The translations under genes and the position numbers were made by a program. A DNA stretch of 64,000 bases, from NCBI GenBank assembly GCA_913057775.1, contig CAJXOG010000011.1, forward strand, positions 1 to 64,000. The letters are read 5' to 3'. The stretch is from an uncultured Fodinibius sp. Lineage in GTDB: Bacteria > Bacteroidota > Rhodothermia > Balneolales > Balneolaceae. Below the pieces are notes generated by a model. The model saw only the letters and a list, made by a program, of their open reading frames with translations. It ran no database searches and had not been told where the DNA came from. Of this stretch, positions 29,717-36,973 are shown piece after piece. Position 1 is the stretch's first letter. The number at the start of each line of letters is the position of its first letter.

Positions 29717-30832
29717 TTACTCCATCGTTGTCTCTTCGAGTGTAACCACGCGTGTATACTTATTCTGTTTTACCGTATTTGCTGCCCCCATCTTGGCATA
29801 TTTTTCACCGCTGCAGGTATAGTTGATCCCAATATTTCCTCCAATATCTAACTCTATATCATTCGTATCATCAGTATCTCCCACCAATACAGAACCATTA
29901 ATAGTAGGTGTGCCATGCCCATCGAAAAGCTGTGCATTTTCAAAAATGACCAACCCGTTAAATTCAAAATTTCCCCTAATGCTAACCGTATTTCCATCTT
30001 CATTCTCATAATCCATATGAGCACTATCTTTGATAACCATTATACCATAACCCTCACTCTGCTGCCCCGTCAGTGAAACATTACCGTCTATAAAAAAGAC
30101 TCCGGGATTTTCTGCGGTTCCCAAGTTATCACTGTAATCTGAGTTCACCGTAGTTGCATTCTCTGAATTTTCAAGTCGCGCTATTAGTTCGTCCGTTGGC
30201 TCATAATCTAACTGATTATCGACTGCAATATCTCCATCCAGATTCAGATCATGACTTTGCAACCCATCTTTTGTTTGCGAGTTATTTACTGTGATGGGTG
30301 GCTTATCTTCACTGCAATCCGGATCTTTACCATTGATTTCATGAGCAGATCCATCTACTGACAAGGAACCATAGCCACTGGGCAGCTGAAGCGCTCCGGC
30401 AAATTCAGGAACCAAGTTGCTAAATGGGGCTACTTCGTACACACTTTTCACACTTGCTTCATACTTATTGTCAATCGTCGCCTTGGAAATTAGTCGTACC
30501 TTATCCTCTTCAAAATAGGGGTTCGTTTCCCAGTCACTATTTAAAAACTCTATTGAAAACTCAATTTCAGCTCCATTAACTTTTGAAGAAGTCCACGTAT
30601 TACTGCTATTTCTGTCATCAACATACTGTTGATCCATATTTTCAATACCTTTTTCGTTGATTTCCTCCATTACAATTTGGATAGCGGTATGAGCAGCATT
30701 CAAAGCCTGTGTTTTCTGGGCATACTCAACTGTTTTTTCAGTCAGCATCTTACTCTGACCTGATGTTCCCATCGATACGATACCTAGTGCAACCAACATT
30801 CCCGCACATATTATTAACATTGCTCGTCCCAT
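29717..30832 (-). CDS. Pilin-like surface/assembly protein, PilX-type position
   Basis: A 371-residue protein with one N-terminal hydrophobic helix (about 4-24), then a heptad-like stretch (KTVEYAQKTQALNAAHTAIQIVMEEI) and a beta-rich, Asn/Asp/Gly-rich body with phrases like GTPTINGSVLVGDTDDTND. This is the layout of PilX-like minor pilins, though no classical G-F-x-x-x-E prepilin site is visible. It is the last of three consecutive genes with the same N-terminal design, 18 bases after the previous one. A role in a pilus or secretion filament is an inference from that design. Confidence 0.55.
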   Translation of the reverse strand: MGRAMLIICAGMLVALGIVSMGTSGQSKMLTEKTVEYAQKTQALNAAHTAIQIVMEEINEKGIENMDQQYVDDRNSSNTWTSSKVNGAEIEFSIEFLNSDWETNPYFEEDKVRLISKATIDNKYEASVKSVYEVAPFSNLVPEFAGALQLPSGYGSLSVDGSAHEINGKDPDCSEDKPPITVNNSQTKDGLQSHDLNLDGDIAVDNQLDYEPTDELIARLENSENATTVNSDYSDNLGTAENPGVFFIDGNVSLTGQQSEGYGIMVIKDSAHMDYENEDGNTVSIRGNFEFNGLVIFENAQLFDGHGTPTINGSVLVGDTDDTNDIELDIGGNIGINYTCSGEKYAKMGAANTVKQNKYTRVVTLEETTME

Positions 30833-30850
30833 AATAACACCTCTTACTTG

Positions 30851-31477
30851 TTAAACATCTTCTAAATTAGGGGGCGAAAAACGCTTTTCCCAAATAGTCC
30901 GTATAAAACGTCCATCATCGCCCGCATTGTTATATACTTTAGCAGTACTCTGTAATTCCAAGGTAATATAAAGCTGTCGAATATTATTTAGATCAGAACT
31001 TGCAACCGGTGTTGCCATATGGTTGCTAACCGGTTGTCCATATTCATCCAAGTACTTAATATTAAAGTTAGTTACTCCCAATCGTATAGGAGTTTCACTT
31101 ATAATACTTCCTGTGTCTACATCCTCAACCGTTCTTTTTAATACATAGGCATTGGGACTTCCATTACCAACAGCCGTACTTGTAAACTCCCAGGTTATCA
31201 GTTCAACCGAGTTGTCACTGCTGTTGTCAATGTTACTTCGAAATGCAATTTTCTGGTTATCCGCTTCTACTAAAACGGGACTGGTCTTGCTATTTCTGTT
31301 AAACCCCATTTTTTGGATATCATGGGTGATCATCTCCTGTACACCCGTTGCTTTTTCCCGGGTTGTTTCAGTAAGCGTCAACTCTGTGGAGCTATTGGAC
31401 ATAGACATATTTAGTGCAAGGATTCCTATCAAAAGGATCCCGCCAATAACATAACTCGTCACTAATCCCATATTCAT
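30851..31477 (-). CDS. Pilin-like protein, PilW-type position
   Basis: A 208-residue protein with an N-terminal hydrophobic helix (about 5-25, SYVIGGILLIGILALNMSMS) and a polar body with a long N-terminal helix (ATGVQEMITHDIQKMG) typical of PilW-like minor pilins. The C-terminal part (ITLELQSTAKVYN, RTIWEKRFSPPNL) resembles the conserved end of such proteins. It lies between two other single-helix genes with gaps of 14 and 18 bases. The family call is by architecture only. Confidence 0.55.
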   Translation of the reverse strand: MNMGLVTSYVIGGILLIGILALNMSMSNSSTELTLTETTREKATGVQEMITHDIQKMGFNRNSKTSPVLVEADNQKIAFRSNIDNSSDNSVELITWEFTSTAVGNGSPNAYVLKRTVEDVDTGSIISETPIRLGVTNFNIKYLDEYGQPVSNHMATPVASSDLNNIRQLYITLELQSTAKVYNNAGDDGRFIRTIWEKRFSPPNLEDV

Positions 31478-31491
31478 AATACTATCCTCCG

Positions 31492-32046
31492 CTAATCAGC
31501 GTAGTAATTTCTAACAAATTCGAGACTATATAAGGTAGGACTGCCTGAACCCTGCCGATCCAAATATTTGCTGGTTATATACACGCGTAGTTTTTTAAAC
31601 GTCGTTTGTGTATTTGTTGATTCAAAATTTGTCTCATCTACATAAAAAACTTCGGCACGAATATTAAATTCTCCATGCTCCGTTTCTACCACATCTTCCC
31701 ATCCGTTATAGTCGTCAAAATCATCAAATTCATGGCGGGTTACTTTCCCATCCCCATTTTGGTCATCATCTTGAGTCCCACTGGTTTCTGGTCCCAAAGT
31801 AGAGGGGGTTTTAAAATCACCCGGTATATCAGCCGGTGGTGCCGTTGCACCAACGGAAACCTCATCAAATTCTTTCGTACGGGCCTCTTCAATAATATCT
31901 TGAGCCAACGCAATAACTTCCTGTTCCAGTTCTCCCTCTATCTGCATATAGGTATTCCGCTGAATCATGCTCGTAGCGCTGAGCAATATCAGCGAAAAAA
32001 TGACCATTGCCCCAATTGTCTGCAGTACTTCTCCGTAACCAACCAT
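31492..32046 (-). CDS. Pilin-like protein, PilV-type position
   Basis: A 184-residue protein, first gene of the pilin-like trio. The N-terminus MVGYGEVLQTIGAMVIFSLI offers a possible prepilin-like Gly before a hydrophobic helix with an early Glu, but it is not the standard pattern. An EF-hand-like acidic stretch (DDDQNGDGKVTRHEF, about 94-108) may bind calcium. The C-terminal half is beta-rich. No pilus ATPase or peptidase is in the window. Whether the trio builds a fibre is open. Confidence 0.5.
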   Translation of the reverse strand: MVGYGEVLQTIGAMVIFSLILLSATSMIQRNTYMQIEGELEQEVIALAQDIIEEARTKEFDEVSVGATAPPADIPGDFKTPSTLGPETSGTQDDDQNGDGKVTRHEFDDFDDYNGWEDVVETEHGEFNIRAEVFYVDETNFESTNTQTTFKKLRVYITSKYLDRQGSGSPTLYSLEFVRNYYAD

Positions 32047-32215: not shown

Positions 32216-33031
32216 CTAATTTTGAGATACGGTTATTGTTCCCAACTCATTCGTTTCACCTACACTCACTTCAACATCATCGACATTTTCTGTAGCGTAT
32301 GAATCATCGGTAGGATCAACTGAAACAGTATATGATCCTTCTTCAAGTCCAATGAGCTTAAATTCGCCATTTGATGTATCAGCTTTGGTTGAAGAAAGCG
32401 TATCTCCTCCGGCTATAGCATATACATACGGTTCAGAATTAACAGGTTCAACAGCTCCTGCAATATTTCCTGTTACTGCCTCATTTGAAGCACTTATCAC
32501 CGGCTTCAGCAAATAGTCTTCACCTGATTGCTGATTACCTCTTACTACCACCGACCGCGCAGCATCAAAATCGAGCAATAAGGTGTAGGTAATGTCGGGC
32601 TCAATTTCAGCATTTACATTTAGCTTGACACCCGTCTGTGCACCACTGGGTACAAACATGCTGTGTTCTTCTCCATCAACTACCACACTGTGACCATCAC
32701 TGCTGAGGATCAGTCGAATTTGTTCGTATGTTCCAACGGGCAATTCGGCAGAACCAAGTTCTTCTGTTACTCCATTTGTGAGCTCGAGAAGGTCATAGCT
32801 TTGCTGGGGACTGCCAAGTTCTACCCATCCTTCATCATTATCAGTGTTATTAACCTCTATTCGTTCGACAAAAACGTTTACTTCATCATAGTTAGCCGGT
32901 GCATCATGGAGCATGACCTCCATTGTTCCGGTATCCCCATCCGCATTGGTTCCGCTGTTGCAACCCATAAATACAACTGAAACAGCTAATAAAAGTACAA
33001 ATGGTATTTTTAGTAACTTCTGTGTTGTCAT
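32216..33031 (-). CDS. DUF4382 domain lipoprotein
   Basis: A 271-residue exported protein. The leader ends in a lipobox (VFMGCN, Cys 24). The DUF4382 domain (about 35-175) shows GTMEVMLHDAPANYDEVNVF and VERIEVN, GWVELG, YDLLELTNG and LPVGTYEQIRLIL segments. A carboxypeptidase-regulatory-like beta domain follows (about 185-271, GNIAGAVEPVNSEPYVYA and GLEEGSYTVSVDPTD). The family is common in Bacteroidota and in archaea, with unknown function. Monocistronic, with an upstream gap of about 160 bases. Confidence 0.85.
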   Translation of the reverse strand: MTTQKLLKIPFVLLLAVSVVFMGCNSGTNADGDTGTMEVMLHDAPANYDEVNVFVERIEVNNTDNDEGWVELGSPQQSYDLLELTNGVTEELGSAELPVGTYEQIRLILSSDGHSVVVDGEEHSMFVPSGAQTGVKLNVNAEIEPDITYTLLLDFDAARSVVVRGNQQSGEDYLLKPVISASNEAVTGNIAGAVEPVNSEPYVYAIAGGDTLSSTKADTSNGEFKLIGLEEGSYTVSVDPTDDSYATENVDDVEVSVGETNELGTITVSQN

Positions 33032-33193
33032 AATTATTACCCTGTAGATTTATTATTGGTGTTAAATTTAGGGTATATGACGACCGAGATTTCTAAAGGT
33101 TACCAACTTTTTGATAGGCTCACTATTTCCCTTGATAAACAGCGTCAATACGGATCTCGAATGGCAAAGTAATCTACAATTCCAGATTGCTAA

Positions 33194-34102
33194 TTAGCCA
33201 TTGCCGGAATTATTGCCTCTATTTCCTTTACCGGGATTATCCTCCATTCCTTTGGGGATATCGCCAGGCGGCCCACCTCCTACATTTCCATCAAACAATT
33301 TTTGCAAAATATCTCGCGCCGGTACTCCCTTCTGCAACTGATTTCCAACTCCTCTGATTATATTTGATGCGGGAATTTGACTTCGCTTCTGTGCCATATT
33401 CAAGGCCATGGGCAGCTTTTGAAATTCACCGGCTTCAAATCCTCCCTTCAACGCCCGAACAATAAATGAACGTGTAAGTTCGGGCTGATCCTGCATAGGC
33501 AAGTCCGAAACAATATCCATTGCAGAAACGATGTTAGATCCTGTGGTTTGTGATAGTACTGACTTGTCACCTATATCAGAAAGAAGTTGTCCAATATTTT
33601 CCGGCGAAATATTTTGTGTTATAGCCCGAGAAGACGATTCCACAAGTCTGTTACGCATGCCTCCCCCCGGCTCATTTTGTCCGCCCATTATTTGTTTTAC
33701 TTCTGGCTTTGCAATCCACGGATCAACGACCCCGGCTGCCTGACGAGTGGCACTTGTCATTCTATTTATATAAGGAACAATCCGTGCATCGGGCACTCCT
33801 TTTGATAGTCCTTCCAGTGCCTTTTGCAAGACATGGTTTGCCGGCAAATTATCTTCAGCAAGTTGTACTGCCGGCTCAATCATATTTGCCAACTGCTGAT
33901 TACTTAAACCTCGTGCTTCTTTTTTGGCCTTAAGATCATCAATTACAGATTGTTCTATTCCTGCATTACCTGCCCGTTCTTCCAGTTTATCCAGCGATTC
34001 TGTTTGCCCAAGGGTATTATCAGGAATACCAAAATAAGCACAAGCAACCACCAAAAGTGCGATGACCTTTATATGTAAATTTAAAACCTTCATCATATTC
34101 AT
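33194..34102 (-). CDS. Unknown exported protein of the sigma/CBM48 operon
   Basis: A 302-residue protein with a signal peptide (hydrophobic about 10-28, cleavage near TLGQ). The body is mostly helical, with a weakly repeated pattern (LEGLSKGVPDARI near 110 and NQLQKGVPARDIL near 265), and it ends in a Gly/Asn-rich tail. I do not recognise a family. It is the last gene of an operon starting with an ECF sigma factor, 10 bases after the outer-membrane protein gene, so it probably serves the same envelope process. Confidence 0.6.
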   Translation of the reverse strand: MNMMKVLNLHIKVIALLVVACAYFGIPDNTLGQTESLDKLEERAGNAGIEQSVIDDLKAKKEARGLSNQQLANMIEPAVQLAEDNLPANHVLQKALEGLSKGVPDARIVPYINRMTSATRQAAGVVDPWIAKPEVKQIMGGQNEPGGGMRNRLVESSSRAITQNISPENIGQLLSDIGDKSVLSQTTGSNIVSAMDIVSDLPMQDQPELTRSFIVRALKGGFEAGEFQKLPMALNMAQKRSQIPASNIIRGVGNQLQKGVPARDILQKLFDGNVGGGPPGDIPKGMEDNPGKGNRGNNSGNG

Positions 34103-34112
34103 TTCATTTAAA

Positions 34113-35381
34113 TTATTGAACTAATAACAGTGCGTTTTGTCCGCCAAATCCATCTTCGACGGTATACGTCTCGCTGGAAAACTCAACCCAGCCTTCTTCT
34201 CCATCCTCAATTTTGAGCACTTTATATTCATAAGAACCGGCATCCAGCTCAAGCTCAGTTCTATACCGATCCTTCTTAACATTTATGAGTGGTATACCGG
34301 GACGCGACCAGTTATTAAAATCGCCCACCAGATAAATACGTCCATCCCCTGAGTAGGAGATTTCCACCTGCTGCATTTCTTTTTCATTATTCCAGTCCGG
34401 CGATATTTTACCTCTATCTTTTCTTGACTTTGGCTGCAGCGTCAATCTAATTCCGCCAGAAACCTGTATGTCATTGATATTCTGATTGGTCGCAGTTGTG
34501 TTATAACGCAGTCCTTCAGCACTCACAAAGGCCCTTAGCTGGGAGTTAATGGGATAACTACCTTCAATTCCCAGCCGAATAATGCGGTTGGTCTCTTCAA
34601 TAGTTTCTGTTGTTCCGGTCGGCCCTCCTCCCACAGGTGGGAAACCGCCCCCTCCGCCACCGGTAGTTACCGTTTGTTGGTTTTGATACTGCTCAAGACC
34701 AACCTTAAATCTAATTTTTGAACCCTTCTCAAAAATCCGGCCCGCAGCCACAAACGAACTAAATCCCTCCTGTATATCTGGAAAAGAATCGAAATTCCCA
34801 TACAACCCTGTAGACAGCTGCCAATTAAAGCTGGGCCAGGTCTCAAACTCAAGAGCATATAAATCAGATCGATCATTGATAGAAGTGGCCACACTGTCAA
34901 CCATATAATCTCGGTAAGACCGAAAGTTCGAACCCACTTTTACTTTTAGTTGGCTAAATGGCGTTGGCGACCACGTTAATGTGGGTTGAGCCCAAAACAT
35001 GCTCCGGCTGAAAGAGGAATTAAAATAACTCCCTCCCATTTCTATTCCTCCACTTACCGAAGGACTAAATTGGTGCTGATATCTTGCCAGAGCTAATCCT
35101 CCTTTCCACGTATCTAAACCGGAAAAGAACGGTTCCAAGACAGCAACTCCCGTTAACTCAACCATATCCTTATCGCCAAGCCAAGTGCTTTGGCCAATAC
35201 CCGAGAGTGCTCCAAAAGAAGTATTTTGAGCACGATTCCACTCTGCGTAATAGGGATTTAAATAGGTATTGGTTGAATATCCCACTCTGGAATCAACAGA
35301 AAATACTGTCTGCCAATCTTGGGCTAACATTTCGTTTGATATAGAAATTAATAACATCACAATAATGAGACCTATTCTCAT
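34113..35381 (-). CDS. Outer-membrane protein with C-terminal CBM48-like domain
   Basis: A 422-residue exported protein. After a signal peptide (cleavage near MLAQ, about 21) the bulk (about 25-320) alternates aromatic beta strands and short turns, as in outer-membrane barrels, with a Gly-rich loop (TTGGGGGGFPPVGGGP) in the middle. Residues about 340-422 form an E-set/CBM48-type domain like the glycogen-binding domain of AMPK-beta, with the signature VGDFNNW at 352-358. The last residues (EDGFGGQNALLL) echo the end of the upstream anti-sigma-like protein. The start overlaps that gene's stop by 4 bases. A polysaccharide ligand is inference. Confidence 0.7.
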   Translation of the reverse strand: MRIGLIIVMLLISISNEMLAQDWQTVFSVDSRVGYSTNTYLNPYYAEWNRAQNTSFGALSGIGQSTWLGDKDMVELTGVAVLEPFFSGLDTWKGGLALARYQHQFSPSVSGGIEMGGSYFNSSFSRSMFWAQPTLTWSPTPFSQLKVKVGSNFRSYRDYMVDSVATSINDRSDLYALEFETWPSFNWQLSTGLYGNFDSFPDIQEGFSSFVAAGRIFEKGSKIRFKVGLEQYQNQQTVTTGGGGGGFPPVGGGPTGTTETIEETNRIIRLGIEGSYPINSQLRAFVSAEGLRYNTTATNQNINDIQVSGGIRLTLQPKSRKDRGKISPDWNNEKEMQQVEISYSGDGRIYLVGDFNNWSRPGIPLINVKKDRYRTELELDAGSYEYKVLKIEDGEEGWVEFSSETYTVEDGFGGQNALLLVQ

Positions 35382-36091
35382 AAGTAGATCACTGCATTTT
35401 TATTGCCAAATCCATCTTCGCGCTGCATCGGAGCCATTGGATCGGTCACCCATTTCTCCCCATCCTTCACAAACATATACCGGTGCTCTCCTCTACTCAT
35501 CGCTACCAATCCGGTCCAAACCTGTTCTCCGTTCACCTCTTGTTTGTCGAGAGAAATAGGCTTCCAGCCGTTAAAGTCGCCGGCAACTTCAATCGATTGC
35601 GCATTTTCATCTATATAAACAAAACGTACCCACACCTGGTCCTGACTATGGGCAACCTGCTGTACCGATTCTTGCGGAGTGCTATTTACCTGTGATACCT
35701 CTTGGGAAGCATCAAAATTAAGTGGCATCAATATGAATATCGCTAATACCATTGCTGCAGCAACGCCATATACCGGTCGCAAATGTATCTCTCGCGGCAT
35801 CCATAATCCTTTTATCCAGCTTTTTATCTCCTCGAATAGCGAGATATTCTGCTCTGGCTGTTCAGCTTGTTCAATACTATACATCACCTGATCTGTAAAC
35901 CCTTCGGGCACTTCCGGTTGGTCATACGCATCCGTTTCACTAATCGTACTTCGGACTGATCTTTCGAAAGAAAGCATTTCCCGCATTGCCGGATCTTCTG
36001 CTATAATATGGAGGGCTTCCCGTTCCTCCTCACCGGATAATTCGCCATCCAGATATTTTCGCAGTATCTCTTCCTTGTCCATATTCATCAT
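35378..36091 (-). CDS. Anti-sigma-like membrane protein with CBM48-like domain
   Basis: A 237-residue protein directly after the ECF sigma gene. The N-terminus (about 1-60, EEILRKYLDGELSGEEEREALH) looks like an anti-sigma cytoplasmic domain but lacks a zinc-binding His-Cys-Cys pattern. One membrane helix lies at about 106-124. The periplasmic part (about 152-237) is a CBM48/AMPK-beta-like domain with AGDFNGW at 170-176 and a final DGFGNKNAVIYL. A sensor that releases the sigma factor when the outer domain binds a glycan or partner is a natural reading. Three bases separate it from the sigma gene, and its stop overlaps the next start. Confidence 0.7.
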   Translation of the reverse strand: MMNMDKEEILRKYLDGELSGEEEREALHIIAEDPAMREMLSFERSVRSTISETDAYDQPEVPEGFTDQVMYSIEQAEQPEQNISLFEEIKSWIKGLWMPREIHLRPVYGVAAAMVLAIFILMPLNFDASQEVSQVNSTPQESVQQVAHSQDQVWVRFVYIDENAQSIEVAGDFNGWKPISLDKQEVNGEQVWTGLVAMSRGEHRYMFVKDGEKWVTDPMAPMQREDGFGNKNAVIYL

Positions 36092-36094
36092 CTC

Positions 36095-36658
36095 CTAATT
36101 ATATTGGTTAACATGATCCTGCAGCTCCTTACGCGCTCTGTGCACGCGCACTTTCAGTGCCCCTTCTGTGGCGTCCAATCGCTTTGCCATCGCTTTGTAC
36201 GTCATATTATCACGATACTTCATCAAAAAAGCCTCGGCATAAATCGGTGTAATGGCAGAGAGGGCCCGTTCCAATATTGCCCTCTGTTCCTGCTTCTCAA
36301 TATCATCGTTGGGTAAATCCTCAACTTTCATTTGGGATTCAAGTTCATGGGATTCCATTTCACTGAACTCCTTATTTGATCGCCTGATATTCTTGGCGTA
36401 GTCCAAGCAGTGATTCCTTGCCAACGTATAAAGCCAGGAAGAAAACTTTGACTGCCTCTTAAAAGAATCCAGTCGCTCATAAGCCTTAACAAAAATCTGC
36501 TGAGCCAATTCTTCCCTGTCAGCTTTTCTGCTCACAAATTTACCAACGATACTAAATACCATCGATGCATACCTGTCAACAAGTATCCTGTAACCATCTT
36601 GCTGACCGTTCAGGATATCTTCTATTAATTCAAATTCTTTCTCCTTAGAATCATCCAT
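36095..36658 (-). CDS. ECF-type RNA polymerase sigma factor
   Basis: A 187-residue alternative sigma factor. Region 2 (about 22-95) shows YRILVDRYASMVFSIV, REELAQQIFVKAYERLDSF and FSSWLYTLARNHCLDYAKN. Region 4 (about 130-180) shows the helix-turn-helix segment MTYKAMAKRLDATEGALKVRVHRARKEL. It starts an operon with an anti-sigma-like protein, an outer-membrane protein and an unknown exported protein, and probably controls that operon. The target promoter is not identifiable here. Confidence 0.92.
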   Translation of the reverse strand: MDDSKEKEFELIEDILNGQQDGYRILVDRYASMVFSIVGKFVSRKADREELAQQIFVKAYERLDSFKRQSKFSSWLYTLARNHCLDYAKNIRRSNKEFSEMESHELESQMKVEDLPNDDIEKQEQRAILERALSAITPIYAEAFLMKYRDNMTYKAMAKRLDATEGALKVRVHRARKELQDHVNQYN

Positions 36659-36973
36659 TTAGCAGAAAACATGTATCGCACATAATTAGCGGGCTTGAAC
36701 CCCCACTCAGTTATGTGACGACTGACTTTTAAAATGGTTACTAAAAAAGTGTAATTGAGTAGAGGAATTTTTTCCAGGTTTTTATGGTTCAAACAAACCA
36801 TTTATTATAACCCTTCATTTCTCTTCTTTCATTAATGGTATAAAATAGTATAATGGAACCGAATTCTTATTACTTCAATTAAGGGAATCGGCCGCACTTA
36901 TTTAGATTGATATTTCATTTTTCTTGGCAACCGGATCATATGCTATGCATTAAAATATAAAAGACTCATAGTT
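36659..36973. promoter_or_regulatory. Divergent promoter region of sigma operon and histidine kinase
   Basis: About 315 AT-rich bases between outward-facing genes. Both promoters must lie here. I see no RNA gene, repeat or remnant, and cannot fix promoter boxes. Confidence 0.45.

Follow-up and report, generated by a model that had tools for sequence, protein, structure and literature searches.

The window analysed here, a 64,000-nucleotide stretch of contig CAJXOG010000011.1 from an uncultured Fodinibius sp. (GenBank assembly GCA_913057775.1), contains a four-gene operon encoding a sigma factor of the extracytoplasmic function (ECF) type, a membrane-anchored anti-sigma factor, an outer-membrane protein (OMP) and a secreted helical protein, referred to below as gene 4. 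The anti-sigma factor and the OMP each end in a carbohydrate-binding module (CBM) of the CBM48/AMPK beta family. We interpret the operon as a glycan-responsive, self-amplifying sigma/anti-sigma switch that would act across the envelope to control surface proteins, a reading to which we assign a probability of roughly 0.55. The paired domains were pointed out in a preliminary description of this stretch; that observation is correct, and the system is larger than described there, its spread across phyla, the core role of gene 4, the promoter and the predicted DUF4382 targets having been missed.

36095..36658, minus strand: ECF sigma-70 factor, 187 amino acids (aa), assigned by Pfam and TIGR02937 matches
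35378..36091, minus strand: class I-like anti-sigma factor, 237 aa, assigned by profile matches and an AlphaFold2 model
34113..35381, minus strand: OMP, 422 aa, assigned by profile matches and a model
33194..34102, minus strand: gene 4, secreted helical protein, 302 aa, with no family above cutoff
36714..36741, minus strand: predicted operon promoter, GTAAC-N16-CGTC-NNA, 55 nt 5' of the sigma start codon

Organization of the operon and its sigma factor

The list of open reading frames (ORFs) places the genes on the minus strand in the order sigma, anti-sigma, OMP, gene 4. The anti-sigma and OMP ORFs share 4 nt, and gaps of 3 nt and 10 nt separate sigma from anti-sigma and OMP from gene 4, which bears out the earlier account of an ECF operon with overlapping or nearly touching genes. 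The sigma factor (Sigma70_r2, 59.4 bits; Sigma70_r4_2, 48.9 bits; TIGR02937, 102.9 bits) comprises regions 2 and 4 only, and its neighbour has the N-terminal helical domain and single transmembrane helix of an ASDI-type anti-sigma factor. A search for a link to phage defence returned no PADLOC match.

Two CBM48-type domains in one operon

The C-terminal domain of the anti-sigma factor, recognized earlier from its AGDFNGW motif as glycogen-binding-like, scores above the Pfam cutoffs of both AMPK1_CBM (34.4 bits, cutoff 26.8) and CBM_48 (26.1 bits, cutoff 22.4). An AlphaFold2 model, built with 42 homologues, comprises a cytoplasmic helical N-terminus, a transmembrane helix (residues 106–126), a disordered linker (residues 129–148) and a β-sandwich (residues 152–237) with a predicted local distance difference test (pLDDT) score of about 96. 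In structural searches, which also included Foldseek, the sandwich is similar to the CBM of AMPK beta1 (Z-score of 13.9 and root mean square deviation of 1.3 Å over 82 residues with Protein Data Bank (PDB) entry 6c9h_B); this fold score refers to the anti-sigma domain only. The sandwich is probably periplasmic, since residues before the transmembrane helix are basic and those after it acidic. Because the NCBIfam anti-sigma model scores 30 bits, under its cutoff of 100, the identity of the protein is based on gene position, helices and the transmembrane segment. Within the protein, modal identity is highest in the CBM (0.75), compared with 0.60 in the sigma-binding domain and 0.35 in the linker and transmembrane region.

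The OMP is modelled with 14 strands between residues 23 and 315, followed by a second sandwich at approximately 329–421. The VGDFNNW motif reported near its end is real, and the domain around it scores 28.7 bits with AMPK1_CBM in a genome scan, above cutoff, and 24.7 bits, just below it, when the whole protein is searched. Homologues from Myxococcales, Gemmatimonadota and Eisenbacteria reach 37–41 bits, and the closest PDB sequence relatives of both the anti-sigma and the OMP domain are AMPK beta glycogen-binding domains. The resemblance noted between the last residues of the two proteins (DGFGNKNAVIYL and DGFGGQNALLLV) holds as a likeness; it is not a separate feature, being the final strand of the CBM fold. 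An even number of strands after an N-terminal signal peptide would place the OMP domain in the periplasm, facing the CBM of the anti-sigma factor. The closest barrel folds are CymA (Z-score of 21), a cyclodextrin channel, and OmpG (Z-score of 18.7); both are 14-strand channels, and at 8–9% identity the likeness is at the level of the fold only. A reading of the OMP as related to type IX secretion was not adopted, the T9SS_plug match (14.3 bits) being sub-threshold and positioned on the CBM. In one genome (locus L045, 3956–5208, minus strand) the OMP occupies two ORFs, a 346-aa barrel and a 74-aa CBM overlapping by about 13 nt; either the gene has genuinely split or a frameshift interrupts it.

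In AMPK beta, the glucan is contacted by W100, K126, W133, L146 and N150. All 27 Balneolota sequences of the anti-sigma factor and all 27 of the OMP keep the equivalents of W100, W133 and N150, and Phe or Tyr takes the place of L146. Across 20 further loci, 17 from the phylum of a Nitrospirota genome (G058) and 3 from the class of the window outside its order, W100 is present in 40 of the 40 pooled anti-sigma and partner domains, W133 in 40 and N150 in 39. This near-invariance suggests that the sugar face is under strong constraint. By profile, fold and contact residues the domains are members of the CBM48/AMPK beta family, and glucan binding is predicted.

Conservation and spread of the module

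The anti-sigma factor occurs in 28 of 58 related genomes, and the OMP and gene 4 adjoin it wherever the contig allows. A survey of gene order, proposed in the preliminary description, finds the order sigma, anti-sigma, OMP, gene 4 fixed across Balneolota and the module recurring in Nitrospirota and other phyla. A scan of the genome collection yielded 50 loci, about 30 of them in Balneolota (Aliifodinibius, Fodinibius, Gracilimonas and metagenome-assembled genomes (MAGs)) and the others in Nitrospirae, Myxococcales, Deltaproteobacteria, Elusimicrobia, Gemmatimonadota, Eisenbacteria, Rokuibacteriota, Acidobacteria and one Deferribacteraceae MAG; single taxon assignments may err, as most of these genomes are MAGs. 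In Myxococcales, Gemmatimonadota and Eisenbacteria the second CBM is part of the barrel protein, as in the window; in loci of the Nitrospirota and Desulfobacterota type it forms a separate small lipoprotein adjoining sigma, and some of these loci have a downstream barrel lacking a CBM. All of the 20 further loci encode sigma, a CBM-bearing anti-sigma factor and a second CBM, and 19 encode gene 4; the remaining locus stops at a contig edge. The distribution is patchy: of the genomes sampled, 25 of 118 in the phylum of G058 and 7 of 148 in that of the window encode the anti-sigma factor. Both the sugar face and the linkage of the operon, whose joint absence from homologues had been named as evidence against the initial proposal, are kept.

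Gene 4 carries the approximate signature G-L-[SA]-K-G-V-P-x-x-R-I and a tail rich in Gly and Pro. Searches against family profiles gave nothing above cutoff, and a histone-like assignment was dropped, the Linker_histone match (18.2 bits) being sub-threshold noise. Relatives lie 3' of the anti-sigma or OMP gene in 15 distant loci, and every phylum examined has gene 4 among the core genes of the module.

Another explanation is an ordinary ECF operon that happens to lie beside unrelated CBM genes, and stand-alone AMPK1_CBM-like proteins are common in these genomes. Gene order, domains and promoter are, however, kept together across several phyla, and since the two CBMs stay together in relatives with full-length loci the pairing is not due to chance; we regard such hitch-hiking as extremely improbable. 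Many relatives encode a stand-alone CBM48-type protein of 100–125 aa away from this operon (L066, L076 and others), and several encode a protein of 780–820 aa with a CBM48-type domain, positionally unrelated to it.

The domain swap suggested initially, or a recent duplication between the two proteins, is rejected for Balneolota. In a tree of 86 columns, which resolves the Balneolota clades and not the deep forks, 27 anti-sigma CBMs and 27 OMP CBMs form two separate, well-supported clades, so there has been no recent swap or conversion between them. On the sequence evidence, the two lineages have been apart since before the radiation of the Balneolota.

Predicted promoter and regulon

Of 35 Balneolota regions 5' of the sigma gene, 33 contain the motif GTAAC-N16-CGTC with a downstream A, and one more has it with a spacing of 17. 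The same motif precedes sigma in Nitrospirota, Eisenbacteria and Deferribacter loci. Its position is that of an autoregulated ECF-type promoter, and the sigma factor is predicted to recognize it. A genus-wide pattern search located a second copy in the window (33103–33076), equivalently placed in other species.

33076..33103, minus strand: second predicted sigma-dependent promoter, GTAACCTTTAGAAATCTCGGTCGTCATA, 44 nt 5' of the DUF4382 lipoprotein gene
32216..33031, minus strand: predicted main target, lipoprotein with DUF4382 and a CarboxypepD_reg-like domain, 271 aa, assigned by Pfam

The lipoprotein matches DUF4382 with 121.8 bits and has no solved relative by sequence. Of 33 loci, 30 have a DUF4382 gene next to gene 4, and 26 of these carry the exact motif; in three more, a small gene separates gene 4 from DUF4382 and the motif lies 5' of that gene. 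Exact sites other than those of sigma precede DUF4382 in 28 of 64 cases in operon-bearing genomes versus 0 of 15 fetched in operon-less genomes (Fisher p = 0.0006), and a genome of the same genus that lacks the operon (G001) gave no site in the pattern search. The genome of the window encodes a second DUF4382 gene on another contig (C9), where the pattern search gave no site. No DUF4382 gene was found near the operons of distant phyla. In the Nitrospirota genomes G058 and G060, all exact sites (3 and 3) lie on the contig of the operon within about 10 kb, preceding sigma, Gly/Met-rich secreted proteins and lipoproteins. The Gly/Met-rich secreted proteins under this promoter in Nitrospirota are repetitive (L108 8619–8960, L109 4507–4914 and L110 4536–4838). 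A reversed-pattern control gives a chance rate of about 1–3 sites per genome, so lone distal sites are not trustworthy. The predicted regulon comprises the operon and surface lipoproteins.

In the window, the DUF4382 gene is followed by three genes for pilin-like proteins that have N-terminal membrane helices (29717–32046, minus strand); the motif precedes a homologue of one of them (29717–30832) in G021 (L161) and a gene for a PilB-like ATPase in G040 (L172). Together, these point to a possible link to type IV pili. In one genus (L051, L058, L060 and L175), the promoter after gene 4 precedes a protein of 118–148 aa with a type IX secretion sorting-domain-like end, which is followed by DUF4382, in some cases with a second copy of gene 4. 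In three genomes of the genus (L130, L150 and L159), the motif lies 5' of a lipoprotein of 288–300 aa with a weak, sub-cutoff match to MbnP (18.4 bits). Three operon-less genomes (L180, L181 and L184) have GTAACGT...CGTC 5' of homologous secreted proteins with a TSGGSIEV motif, which suggests another ECF regulon with a similar promoter.

The composition of the predicted regulon bears on a further explanation, namely a nutrient switch of the RsgI kind, in which environmental starch or cyclodextrin would enter through the barrel and be sensed by the CBMs, inducing the use of alpha-glucans. CBM48 is an alpha-glucan-binding family, the barrel has its closest fold in CymA, and RsgI itself provides a precedent. 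The likeness to CymA is nonetheless confined to the fold, OmpG scoring almost equally, and the predicted targets include no glycoside hydrolase, sugar transporter or porter, or SusCD-type gene. This absence argues for an envelope or self-made polymer over a nutrient, and we consider a nutrient switch quite improbable.

A model for signalling across the envelope

ECF sigma factors are held by membrane anti-sigma factors and are usually released through proteolysis or a conformational change. In the resting state of the proposed switch, the anti-sigma factor would retain the sigma factor at the inner membrane and expose its CBM in the periplasm on the flexible linker. The second CBM would lie opposite, presented from the outer membrane on the periplasmic end of the barrel here and on a separate lipoprotein in other phyla, and the secreted gene-4 protein would be part of one complex with them. 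Both CBMs may read a glycan, either alpha-glucan-like or some other polymer, that is produced or exported at the envelope. Its binding, or an altered contact between the CBMs, would lead to proteolysis or a change of shape of the anti-sigma factor and free the sigma factor, which would then transcribe its own operon from GTAAC-N16-CGTC together with the DUF4382 surface lipoproteins. The output would thus be a remodelling of surface lipoproteins, joined in Nitrospirota by Gly-rich secreted proteins.

Several observations weigh against this model. The equivalent of K126 is Met in every Balneolota anti-sigma factor (Lys or Arg in the OMP), 5 of 15 distant anti-sigma factors have lost W133, and the CBM of the Deferribacter partner lipoprotein (L120 3820–4149, plus strand) is seemingly degenerate, without the aromatic face. 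The predicted targets lack the sugar-related genes of RsgI regulons, as described above, and we know of no function for DUF4382.

The main alternative is that the CBM48-type domains serve protein–protein contacts, the outer-membrane domain docking on that of the anti-sigma factor directly or via gene 4. A barrel or lipoprotein that failed to reach the outer membrane would break this contact and free the sigma factor, making the operon a sensor of envelope-assembly stress. Such docking would account for the second CBM that every one of the 20 further loci and every full Balneolota locus also encodes, for a regulon of envelope proteins rather than of sugar metabolism, and for the retention of the Deferribacter partner domain despite its apparent loss of the aromatic face. 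General docking would not need W100, W133 and N150, which are near-invariant in both domains across phyla, and we consider this alternative possible but less likely than the glycan-responsive switch. Glycan sensing and docking can both be true. Of the earlier suggestion of a signalling system that reads a glucan, the signalling role is supported by the operon's own promoter and predicted targets, and the sugar-binding face is retained; the glucan is a predicted ligand.

More broadly, the module may be an ancient, undescribed envelope-signalling device of Balneolota and their relatives, Nitrospirota, Desulfobacterota, Gemmatimonadota, Myxococcota and others. In this reading, the CBM48 of the anti-sigma factor and an outer-membrane-anchored CBM48 would span the periplasm by binding one common glycan and would thereby gauge an envelope polysaccharide; the gene-4 family would be a novel component that the module always requires, and a single promoter code would be kept across phyla. 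We put this forward tentatively. That the module occurs in several deep phyla suggests that such monitoring of the envelope is both old and general. The model would tie two families without assigned function, DUF4382 and gene 4, to a regulator, and it supplies exact, testable promoters.

Comparison with known systems

No description of the module was found in the literature searched, although the sigma factor may already have an ECF group number. With ECF/FecR/TonB receptor signalling it shares a barrel, a periplasmic anti-sigma domain and an ECF sigma factor in one unit, as well as a periplasmic domain of the barrel that faces the anti-sigma factor. It differs from FecA-FecR-FecI in its small 14-strand barrel with a C-terminal CBM and in the CBM48 that takes the place of FecR, and Pfam detects no plug, STN, TonB-receptor or FecR domain in the OMP or anti-sigma factor of the window. 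With RpoE-RseA-RseB it has in common an ECF sigma factor, a single-pass anti-sigma factor, a secreted third protein, one operon and autoregulation. The window module additionally includes the second CBM protein, and no RseA or RseB domains were detected in its anti-sigma factor or gene 4. The glycogen-binding domain of AMPK beta shares the fold and most glucan-contact residues, whereas the domains described here are bacterial, periplasmic and carried by an anti-sigma factor and an outer-membrane protein.

The nearest system in working principle is RsgI of Clostridium thermocellum and its relatives. Clostridial RsgI binds its sigma factor through the N-terminal part, crosses the membrane once and ends in a CBM outside the membrane, and it is encoded with its sigma factor in one operon that the sigma factor reads from its own promoter (PMC4711584). 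A CBM on an anti-sigma factor, initially called unexpected, therefore has a precedent (PMC4711584), and that judgement was overstated. The two systems share the layout of CBM, transmembrane segment and sigma-binding domain as well as autoregulation. They differ in that SigI is not an ECF factor of the type in the window, that RsgI-N is another domain, and that RsgI proteins carry CBM3, CBM42, PA14 or GH10 rather than CBM48; the anti-sigma factor of the window has no Pfam match to RsgI_N, and its sigma factor matches ECF models. RsgI furthermore acts at a Gram-positive surface, without a second CBM partner or gene 4, and its regulon consists of cellulosomal enzymes. If the proposed switch is correct, the operon would represent a Gram-negative equivalent of anti-sigma systems that sense glycans, in which the sensor and its outer-membrane partner are built on one sugar-binding fold.

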